A stretch of 64,000 bases of DNA from Adhaeribacter arboris (GTDB taxonomy: Bacteria; Bacteroidota; Bacteroidia; Cytophagales; Hymenobacteraceae). The position numbers were made by a program, and so were the translations under genes. Shown piece after piece: positions 7,468-54,826 of the stretch. Under the pieces are notes generated by a model that ran no database searches, was not told where the DNA came from, and worked only from the letters and a program-made list of their open reading frames with translations. Where the stretch lies: the NCBI RefSeq assembly GCF_003023845.1, contig NZ_PYFT01000001.1, positions 1,922,001 to 1,986,000 on the forward strand, in the 5' to 3' direction. Every line of letters starts with the position of its first letter. The stretch's first letter is position 1.

Positions 7468-8019
7468 ATGCTGGCAAAATTTTTATCAAAAATAATATTT
7501 AAAGTTTCGGGCTGGAAAGTAATTGGCCGCATTCCGGCGAGCGTTCCTAAATGTATTATGATTGCGGCACCACATACGAGTAATTGGGATTTCTTGTATG
7601 CCCGTTGTGCTTTTTATATTATGGGGGTAGATGTTCGTTTTACCATTAAGAAAGAAGCAGTTAAATGGCCTTTGCTGGGTCCCTGGATTCAATATATGGG
7701 AGCCTTACCCGTAGACAGAAGTAAAAACAACAGCCTGGTACAAGCCATGATCGATATTTTTAACCAGAACGAGAAAATGGTAATTCTAATTACGCCGGAA
7801 GGAACCCGTAAATACCAGCCACGTTGGCGGCGGGGCTTTTACCACGCCGCGGTAGGTGCTAAGGTACCCATTTGCTTAGGCTACCTCGACTACGCCAAAA
7901 AAGAAGCGGGAGTGGGACCCATCTTCTATCCTACCGGTAACATCGAGAAAGATTTAGAAGAAATTCTGGCCTTTTACCGGACTAAAACCGCTAAATTTCC
8001 GGCAAACGGAGTACGTTAA
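7468..8019 (+). CDS. 1-acyl-glycerol-3-phosphate acyltransferase family (PlsC-like)
   Basis: 183 residues. It has the acyltransferase HX4D motif (APHTSNWDF near residue 36) and the acyl-acceptor block PEGTR (near residue 110). This places it in the PlsC/LPLAT superfamily, which moves an acyl chain onto lysophosphatidate-type acceptors at the inner membrane face. The length is typical of the short Bacteroidota variants that lack extra membrane segments. It starts right after a strong terminator, so it must have its own promoter in the short gap or rely on read-through. Whether it is the housekeeping PlsC or a paralogue with another acceptor cannot be told. Confidence 0.85.
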   Translation: MLAKFLSKIIFKVSGWKVIGRIPASVPKCIMIAAPHTSNWDFLYARCAFYIMGVDVRFTIKKEAVKWPLLGPWIQYMGALPVDRSKNNSLVQAMIDIFNQNEKMVILITPEGTRKYQPRWRRGFYHAAVGAKVPICLGYLDYAKKEAGVGPIFYPTGNIEKDLEEILAFYRTKTAKFPANGVR

Positions 8020-8794: not shown

Positions 8795-9064
8795 ACTCGT
8801 CCTTCTTCACCTTTACTATAATACGAGCAGATTTCAGATTTATTTTTTTATAAATATCTAATCTAGTTAATGGATGTAAACTGCTTTTTCTAGATCAGAA
8901 CCAAAATCAATAAATTTAAGTTAATTTGTAAAAATATAGCAAGCCGTCTTATCGCTGCGCCGCGAGGCGGAGAGGAAAGTCCGGGCAACACAGAGCAGTC
9001 TACTTCCTAACGGGAAGGATTCCGGCAAAATCCGGGATACAGCCAGTGCCACAGAAAATAACCG

Positions 9065-9146
9065 CCGGTACAGTTACATTTACCAGGCACCATTTACCAA
9101 AACTTGGTCATTGGAAAATGGTACCTGGTAAATGTAACTGTACCGG
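9065..9146 (+). repeat. rnpB: 7-nt-periodic hairpin insertion in P12 of RNase P RNA
   Basis: 9065-9095 and 9116-9146 form a 31-bp stem with a single mismatch, capped by 20 nt. This is the P12 position: just after AACCGCC and just before GGTAAGGGTGAAA. The sequence is 7-nt periodic: CCA recurs at 9083, 9090 and 9097, and TG(G) at 9105, 9112, 9119, 9126 and 9133. Ordinary P12 helices are much shorter. Confidence 0.75.
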
Positions 9147-9256
9147 TAAGGGTGAAAAGGTGCGGTAAGAGCGCACCAGTACGCGGGCGACCGTTGTAGC
9201 TGGGTAAACCTTAGGCGTTGAAAGACCAAATAGGCTGGCAGCTCATTTAGCTTAGA

Positions 9257-9313
9257 TTATCTTTTTCCCGGTTATTGCGGTAATTGGTAAAGGATATCTG
9301 GTAAAAGATAAGG
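9257..9313 (+). repeat. rnpB: second 7-nt-periodic hairpin insertion in RNase P RNA (P16/P17 region)
   Basis: TTATCTTTT at 9257-9265 pairs with AAAAGATAA at 9303-9311. Inside it, five heptads run without a gap from 9279 to 9313 (GGTAATT, GGTAAAG, GATATCT, GGTAAAA, GATAAGG; consensus GRTANNN). It sits between the CCAAATAGG block and the GGGTAGG block, the P16/P17 region of A-type RNase P RNA. Confidence 0.65.
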
Positions 9314-9674
9314 GCGGCTCGTCCGATGCCAGTGGGTAGGTTGATGGAGCCCCGCCGCGAGGTGGGGCCTAGATAAATGGTAAGACGTTCGGGAGCTTGC
9401 TTCCGAATGACAGAACCCGGCTTACAGGCTTGCTATATTTTTTATTTTTTCTTCGCTAATTGTTTTTTATAAGGCAATAAGTTGATGTTTTTGTAGACTT
9501 AACAACCTAAACTCCGTTAGGTACAGAATTCACCAAAAGCAAAATCCACACTTTTTGTAATGCCAACCCGCCAATTGGCTGATTGGCTTTCCATTAAAGT
9601 TATAGGCCACTTTGATAACTTTATCCAACCAGAATAATTCCTTAAAGAAACATTTTCCTGTATTAAATATTGAA

Positions 9675-15506: not shown

Positions 15507-15557
15507 GTCGAGTCCATGCATGGTCCATAGTCGATAGTCCACAGTCGACAGGCCATA
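15507..15557. repeat. heptad-periodic intergenic repeat (GTCNAYA type)
   Basis: Five gap-free heptads at 15523-15557 (GTCCATA, GTCGATA, GTCCACA, GTCGACA, GGCCATA), with looser copies down to 15507. It lies immediately 5' of the thioesterase start on the minus strand, leaving about 7 bp before the ATG. The same words recur at 15698-15746 and, inverted, at 27850-27884. Confidence 0.7.
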
Positions 15558-15697
15558 GTAATAATTAAATGATTATACGGTTAATTTTTTTAAATCGCAA
15601 AGTAAGCAGATAACTGGTCCTAAATAAATTAAGTCACACCAAAATACAGCCATTTAACTAGCCATCCATCTAACAACCAAATCTATTCGCTTTAATC

Positions 15698-21587: not shown

Positions 21588-21722
21588 CTAATAAGTTAAG
21601 AGTTATGAGTTTAAAATCTATCTAAAATTTAATGAAAAGAATACTTAAAAGTTTATTTAGCTTTCATAAATTTTAGCGATAAAATCGCTCCGAAACTCAT
21701 AACTCATAACTTTTAACTCTCA
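21588..21722. repeat. heptad repeats and hairpins between two convergent genes
   Basis: From the tsaC stop: CTAATAA, GTTAAGA, GTTATGA, GTTTAAA (21588-21615). At the other end: AACTCAT, AACTCAT, AACTTTT, AACTCTC (21694-21721), which overlaps the stop codon of the opposite gene. The two arrays are inverse complements. Between them, 21622-21637 pairs imperfectly with 21662-21676, and AGCGAT/ATCGCT at 21675-21689 is a tight hairpin. The whole gap could fold into one structure and serve as a bidirectional terminator. Confidence 0.6.
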
Positions 21723-27724: not shown

Positions 27725-27843
27725 AGGTTGTCAGGTTGCAAGTGAGAAAGTTAAATCATTTTTTAGTTTAACAATTCATTTGTTCAACAATGTTACAATC
27801 CCACAATTTAACTATTTAATAATTTACCCGTTCAACATTTAAA
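27725..27843. repeat. octad-periodic AT-rich intergenic repeat
   Basis: Beginning 4 bp after the stop codon: CAGGTTGT, CAGGTTGC, then further on AACAATTC, ATTTGTTC, AACAATGT, TACAATCCC, ACAATTTA, ACTATTTA, ATAATTTA, CCCGTTCA, ACATTTAA. The step is 8 nt with one 9-nt unit. It leads without a break into the heptad array at 27850. Confidence 0.6.
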
Positions 27844-27849
27844 ATTAAA

Positions 27850-27884
27850 GTCTGTGGTCTATCGACTATGGACTATCGACTAAC
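27850..27884. repeat. heptad repeat occupying the ribosome-binding region of the M42 peptidase gene
   Basis: GTCTGTG, GTCTATC, GACTATG, GACTATC, GACTAAC: five gap-free heptads ending 2 bp before the ATG at 27887. No Shine-Dalgarno-like purine run is left in the usual window. The words are the inverse complement of those at 15507-15557. Confidence 0.7.
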
Positions 27885-54791: not shown

Positions 54792-54826
54792 TTAGTCGTT
54801 GCTGATTATTCGTTGCTAACTATTTT
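54792..54826. repeat. heptad repeat directly after the glycosyltransferase stop codon
   Basis: TTAGTCG, TTGCTGA, TTATTCG, TTGCTAA, CTATTTT: five heptads without a gap, with a clear 14-nt repeat of TCGTTGCT. It starts at the base after the stop codon, as with the arrays at mltG and tsaC. Confidence 0.6.

Follow-up and report, generated by a model that had tools for sequence, protein, structure and literature searches.

The rnpB locus of Adhaeribacter arboris

The window, by which we mean the whole 64,000-nt stretch of A. arboris DNA analyzed here (its genome is coded G000), contains rnpB, the gene for class A RNase P RNA. Its match to RF00010 lies well over the gathering score of 100, covers the whole model, and is the only rnpB match in the 7.25-Mb genome. 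The features of interest are as follows.

8936..9440, + strand: rnpB, class A RNase P RNA (RF00010, 262.6 bits, model 1-367)
9061..9147, + strand: P12 helix (ACCGCC...GGT), 87 nt, with heptad hairpin (cmscan alignment; 151 parsed rnpB genes)
9065..9100, + strand: 5′ arm of the P12 hairpin, ATTTACC-type units at 7-nt spacing (inverted repeat; fold)
9111..9146, + strand: 3′ arm of the P12 hairpin, GGTAAAT-type units (inverted repeat; fold)
9244..9309, + strand: enlarged P16-P17 stem, 3′ arm GGTAATT GGTAAAG ... GGTAAAA (cmscan insert; lengths in relatives); we take this to be the P16.1 position

The initial annotation had placed a near-perfect 31-bp hairpin in P12 and had suggested a covariance-model alignment as a check. 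Alignment by cmscan with RF00010, which we compared over relatives, confirms the placement: the two arms are 94% complementary as an inverted repeat, and they fold with 35 pairs, slightly above the 31 first given, and two 1×1 mismatches at −57.9 kcal/mol (z = −10.5 against 200 dinucleotide shuffles). The positions given for CCA (9083, 9090, and 9097) and for TG(G), every 7 nt (9105, 9112, 9119, 9126, and 9133), are exact.

Taken alone, the 7-nt period of this P12 is weak. Both arms have lag 7 as the best among lags 4 to 12, and single-arm shuffles gave p = 0.12 for the left arm and 0.024 for the right. Pooling the arms gave p = 0.002 with lag 14 best among lags 3 to 14, p = 0.002 with lag 7 best under a later parse, and p = 0.02 with lag 6 best when the arms were cut differently; such pooled values are too strong, because two complementary arms are not independent.

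P12 length and period in relatives

We compared 155 rnpB genes from the window, its relatives, and members of its family, and parsed P12 in 151 (G053, G044, G045, and G195 were missed). P12 length is bimodal: 15 to 31 nt in 82 genes and 58 to 113 nt in 69, with none between. Long P12s, nearly all of them periodic, are present in 68 of 142 sampled family members; this sample is non-random, since it was taken from the best-scoring loci downward, and of the 202 family genomes with a match it leaves out about 60, most of which score low. Beyond the family, one of nine P12s is long. Every one of the six family genera sampled has both short and long forms (long in 6/8 for g1, 1/2 for g2, 12/49 for g3, 6/8 for g4, 31/59 for g5, and 12/16 for g6). 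Within the genus of A. arboris, P12 is short in two of eight members, and the other six have three kinds of unit. Close relatives without the insert, which the initial annotation had proposed to look for, thus exist, and P12 differs among relatives in both sequence and length.

Comparison over relatives makes the periodicity strong. The best arm lag among lags 4 to 12 was 7 in 44 of the 69 long P12s, 8 in 23, 4 in one, and 11 in one, and pooled arms reached p ≤ 0.01 in 65. With arms taken separately, lag 7 or 8 was best in 64 of 69 left arms and 66 of 69 right arms (p ≤ 0.01 in 47 and 59, respectively); about 21% would be expected from shuffled left arms. The claim of a 7-nt autocorrelation above shuffled controls therefore holds across the long-P12 set, with G000 by itself giving a modest signal, and has to be widened to include the 23 hairpins whose period is 8 nt instead.

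Folds were computed with an earlier P12 parse, which counted 67 long P12s among 149, misclassified G135 and G147 as short, and gave wrong lengths for several more; the close-pair set and the P16-P17 lengths reported below use this parse too. The 67 long P12s folded with z scores from −2.4 to −14.6 (median, −7.0, versus letter shuffles), some with poor pairing (25 pairs in G003; z = −2.4 in G216). Long P12s across the family are hairpins of period 7 or 8.

Turnover between close species

P12 is replaced much faster than the remainder of rnpB. Among 16 genome pairs whose rnpB cores are ≥95.5% identical, five pair a long P12 with a short one, one consists of two long P12s without a common 7-mer, and ten show neither. 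G069 and G128 have cores 98.2% identical over 436 gap-free columns and P12s of 29 and 83 nt, respectively; G137 and G128, with cores 97.2% identical, have heptad versus octad P12s with no 7-mer in common. G008 and G013, which belong to one genus, have a common stem of a T run and an A run, whose loop holds a heptad hairpin in G013 only.

On a tree of rnpB without P12, parsimony counts 39 changes between short and long forms; at least 25 persist when branches below 95% bootstrap are collapsed and resolved most favorably, on a tree of a few hundred columns that recombination could distort. The single colonization envisaged at the outset is thus better described as many events, with those ≥25 changes on well-supported branches.

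A second helix and other structured RNAs

The region between P16 and P17 is 99 nt in G000 and 94 to 99 nt in G000, G003, and G006 together; it is 51 to 53 nt in four other congeners (one congener was unparsed) and 48 to 53 nt in the parsed members of g2, g3, g4, and g6, and appears short by eye in g5. The extra sequence has the GGTAAAT unit in all three enlarged genes, with period p values of 0.061 (G000), 0.001 (G003), and 0.024 (G006). Neither the P12 nor the P16-P17 helix of G000 is strongly periodic taken singly. Outside the family, P16-P17 inserts are periodic in G255 (p = 0.004), G306 (p = 0.001), and G052 (p = 0.001); that of G280 is below significance (p = 0.095).

Other structured RNAs of the genus showed no such expansion: tmRNA is 371 nt in eight of eight congeners and 23S rRNA is 2,888 to 2,894 nt in seven of eight, the incomplete G007 yielding no 23S gene. 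These normal lengths lend no support to a general invasion of structured RNAs. The suggestion that the repeats expand into such RNAs thus stands for two helices of rnpB and fails for tmRNA and 23S rRNA.

Across the order, 149 of 157 genomes have an rnpB match. Of 20 rnpB genes chosen for their length (matches of 411 to 535 nt), eight have a periodic P12 (p ≤ 0.005), four in family f5 (G255, G306, G293, and G280) and four in family f11 (G310, G259, G297, and G344). The P12 period was tested and found absent in G246 and G323, and no periodic P12 was seen in G230, G319, G229, G245, or G249. The five genes from family f2 have an unparsed P12, and their visible expansion is AT-rich and located at P15-P17; we note that these long rnpB genes (L383 to L387) have P15-P17 expansions that are apparently non-periodic. 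With periodic P12s in only 8 of 20, the idea that every long rnpB is a repeat case was dropped.

Repeat units within P12 and in the genomes

P12 units vary between and within genera. GGTAAAT is found in G000, G003, and G006; AGTTAAC-like units are found in G007 and some members of g3; g6 has AATTAAG-like units in most members and AGTTGTT-like units in others; and g5 has TAGCTGT, AGTTAAG, and octads such as GGTGAGAT or AGTGAATG. Two attempts to order the units were rejected: RGT as a universal motif was not significant (37 of 67, versus 29 expected and a shuffle maximum of 40), and 6-mer clustering was discarded because 52 of the 69 long P12s fell into one class.

We counted four unit patterns in 20 genomes, eight of which have one of these patterns in P12; counts are of overlapping matches and include the copies in P12 itself. 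In the three genomes whose P12 has the G000 unit TGGTAAATGGTAAA, it occurs 8, 29, and 6 times, against 0 to 2 times in the other 17. TTAGCTGTTAGCTG occurs 72 and 96 times in the two genomes with it in P12, 15 times in G074, 9 times in G158, and 0 to 2 times elsewhere; AGTTAAGAGTTAAG occurs 44 times in its one genome, G132 (4 of them in rnpB), and 0 to 2 times elsewhere; and the octad GGTGAGATGGTGAGAT occurs 11 and 45 times in the two genomes with it in P12 and not at all in 18. All eight genomes with a tested unit in P12 therefore also have that unit dispersed, and for each of the four patterns the unit in P12 agrees with the one scattered through the genome. Reversed-pattern controls gave 0 to 1 for three of the patterns and were useless for the G000 unit, because the reverse of TGGTAAA is its own rotation. 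The 15 matches in G074 and 9 in G158 are to the TTAGCTG heptad and are the one exception to this pattern of counts; the P12 of both these g5 genomes is built of octads, so a single genome can hold several unit families.

In searches of the G000 genome, its P12 arms matched six other places at E < 0.05 (best, 1.4e-4) and 14 places at E ≤ 1, of which two fall within ORFs. The same heptads, which the initial annotation had proposed to seek elsewhere in the genome, are thus dispersed in G000 and also occupy the second helix of its rnpB.

Arrays in intergenic regions

We scanned 464 kb of G000 in 28-nt windows for intergenic arrays at lags 4 to 16. At ≥68%, lags 7 and 8 gave 13 and 11 arrays, respectively (shuffles, 0.0 and 0.4), and the remaining lags gave 0 to 1 save the harmonics 14 and 16; at a looser 64% threshold, shuffles gave 3.4 and 3.2 at lags 7 and 8. 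Of 37 merged arrays (64%), 23 are no more than 15 nt from an intergenic edge as set by a simple ORF caller, versus a random mean of 6.75 and a maximum of 17 in 2,000 trials. Two arrays share a spacer in 11 of 253 G000 spacers; by eye, seven of these 11 are inverted pairs, and four of the 11 have an array at both ends.

Arrays of several units with period 7, 14, or 8 occur within the window at 995-1023, 15519-15559, 21694-21719, 27783-27882, and 54796-54824. Three spacers between co-directed genes (L134:7816-8026, L134:16856-17098, and L147:18477-18578) have inverted periodic arrays at the stop and start codons. With inverted arrays at both ends, an entire spacer could form one stem-loop.

For G132, we chose 20 stretches at places with the unit and viewed the spacers of 15; by eye, about 12 of these hold the P12 unit in inverted arms. 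In L331, L342, L343, L344, and L347, the heptad arms contain or adjoin a palindromic repeat that includes GTCATTGCGAGC, GTCCTTGCGAGC, or GTCATGCTGA; it looks as if the palindromic and heptad repeats were nested, one within the other.

Samples of 80 kb from ten further genomes showed a clear lag-7 excess in G006 and G132 and a smaller one in G128; there were two lag-7 hits in G136 and G003 and 0 to 1 in G005, G012, G181, G199, and G040. G003, G181, and G040 thus have a long P12 yet little or no array excess in 80 kb. In the single orthologous gene pair that we compared, G000 has a spacer of 212 nt that includes heptad arms, G004 has one of 150 nt that lacks them, and G006 has one of about 22 nt. 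The proteins on either side are similar (86 and 78% identity downstream, 72 and 59% upstream), and the upstream gene is split into two ORFs in G006.

Origin of the P12 inserts

We favor, with a probability of roughly 0.6, a scenario in which a genome's dispersed 7-nt repeat took over P12 and, in a second takeover, the P16-P17 helix, by seeding, slippage, and arm copying, and largely neutrally. In Cytophagales, P12 is peripheral and free to vary in length. A short piece of the dispersed repeat would enter its apical loop, for example through recombination or template switching, or as part of a small mobile hairpin; slippage by one-unit steps would then let the arm grow or shrink, and template switching across the hairpin would copy one arm onto the other. 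Such copying would account for arms that stay complementary despite a change of unit, and the G132 hairpin L335, in which variant units common to both arms appear by eye to be shifted, is suggestive of it. Selection would demand only a closed P12 base and a self-folding insert, so that the insert would probably be largely neutral and the RNA active. The arrival of copies, that is, movement itself, is the step we infer from unit matching (four units counted genome-wide) and fast turnover; no insertion bearing target-site marks was encountered. An analogous colonization in a Bacteroidota, as first proposed, is to this extent supported by the unit match and the relatives.

The movement could instead be that of a discrete element: a MITE-like or REP-like non-autonomous hairpin, with transposase supplied in trans, inserting into P12 without slippage. 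Dispersed unit matches are often plus/minus pairs less than 200 bases apart, hairpins are seen in G132, one sits in the P12 loop of G013 and not in that of G008, and the G000 arms have their matches elsewhere in the genome (six at E < 0.05; 14 at E ≤ 1). By eye, however, the dispersed copies vary in loop, length, and ends, the unit being their common part, with no conserved terminus or target duplication noticed; and a fixed element would not be expected to switch between periods 7 and 8 among close species. We consider this explanation unlikely.

P12 might also have grown in place only, through slippage and hairpin-templated repair with no genomic input, 7 to 8 nt being a step set by the polymerase. 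Such growth would fit the recurrence of periods 7 and 8 with many different units, and 7 nt has been proposed to favor polymerase slippage (a proposal cited in PMC4679880). It is decidedly unlikely, though, given that the P12 unit is the dispersed genomic unit in four of four unit tests and that one unit is common to two helices of rnpB in G000, G003, and G006.

Highly doubtful, in our estimate, is a dedicated, hitherto undescribed process that would write species-specific 7- or 8-nt inverted pairs beside genes and into tolerant RNA helices, with a unit that is switchable wholesale between close species. One conceivable writer would be a reverse transcriptase that adds repeats from a short RNA template: according to PMC12632851, tandem-repeat DNA with a 9-nt unit is produced by a DRT10 system that was tested in E. 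coli. Least credible is selection for a long P12 that binds a protein or alters RNase P, with repeats as cheap building material: the hairpin is kept in the 67 folded long P12s despite their differing units, and long P12s are confined to 58 to 113 nt, but 15 to 31 nt suffices in close relatives, both forms occur in each of the six sampled family genera, and P12 is sometimes dispensable, as in cyanobacteria (PMC2858038, in part).

If the takeover of P12 by dispersed repeats is correct, an essential ribozyme keeps a record of a repeat process that acts across the whole genome. It has long been asked if the 7-nt repeats of bacteria move, slip, or are copied; the many independent P12 switches allow this to be tested at a single orthologous site, between conserved flanks and in many species. 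Neither the length of rnpB nor the sequence of P12 is a good phylogenetic character in Cytophagales.

Comparison with known systems

Heptad repeats termed STRR were reportedly described by Vioque in 1997 in rnpB of heterocyst-forming cyanobacteria. P12 is the site of these repeats, which are also dispersed in the genome. The case described here is alike in having heptads inside rnpB P12 and the unit dispersed in the same genome, and differs in its phylum, in having octads too, in involving two helices, and in its repeated unit swaps between close species. The G000 host is not a heterocyst-forming cyanobacterium, as the gene upstream of rnpB (7468-8019) has its nearest named relatives in Adhaeribacter, Rufibacter, Pontibacter, and Hymenobacter, which places the host in Hymenobacteraceae; the Cytophagales case is set apart from the cyanobacterial STRR by host.

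The P6b stem of the Nostoc tRNA-Leu group I intron offers a second parallel. According to excerpts of PMC4476775, this variable stem is built on one of two 7-nt motifs, and the motif classes replace one another repeatedly and independently. It thus resembles P12 as a variable stem of a catalytic RNA made from 7-nt motifs with repeated class replacement, and is unlike it in being another RNA, in another phylum, with two motif classes only; the sections of that paper examined contain no tie to dispersed genomic units.

TAACTGA direct repeats are reported beside start codons in Beggiatoaceae, some Cyanobacteria, and five Bacteroidetes (PMC4679880, in part). The G000 arrays are like them in adjoining the edges of coding regions (23 of 37 within 15 nt). 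Unlike ours, those repeats are mostly of one unit and mostly direct rather than inverted, as far as the same part of PMC4679880 describes them, and the G000 P12 unit is of GGTAAAT type, not TAACTGA; rnpB and RNase P are absent from the main text of that paper. A search of titles and abstract openings in the open-licence literature found no report of repeats in Bacteroidota rnpB. Within the literature searched, then, the new elements are the phylum, the octads, the use of two sites within a single RNA, and the link of the P12 unit to the genomic unit; cyanobacteria are not alone in having such repeats in rnpB.
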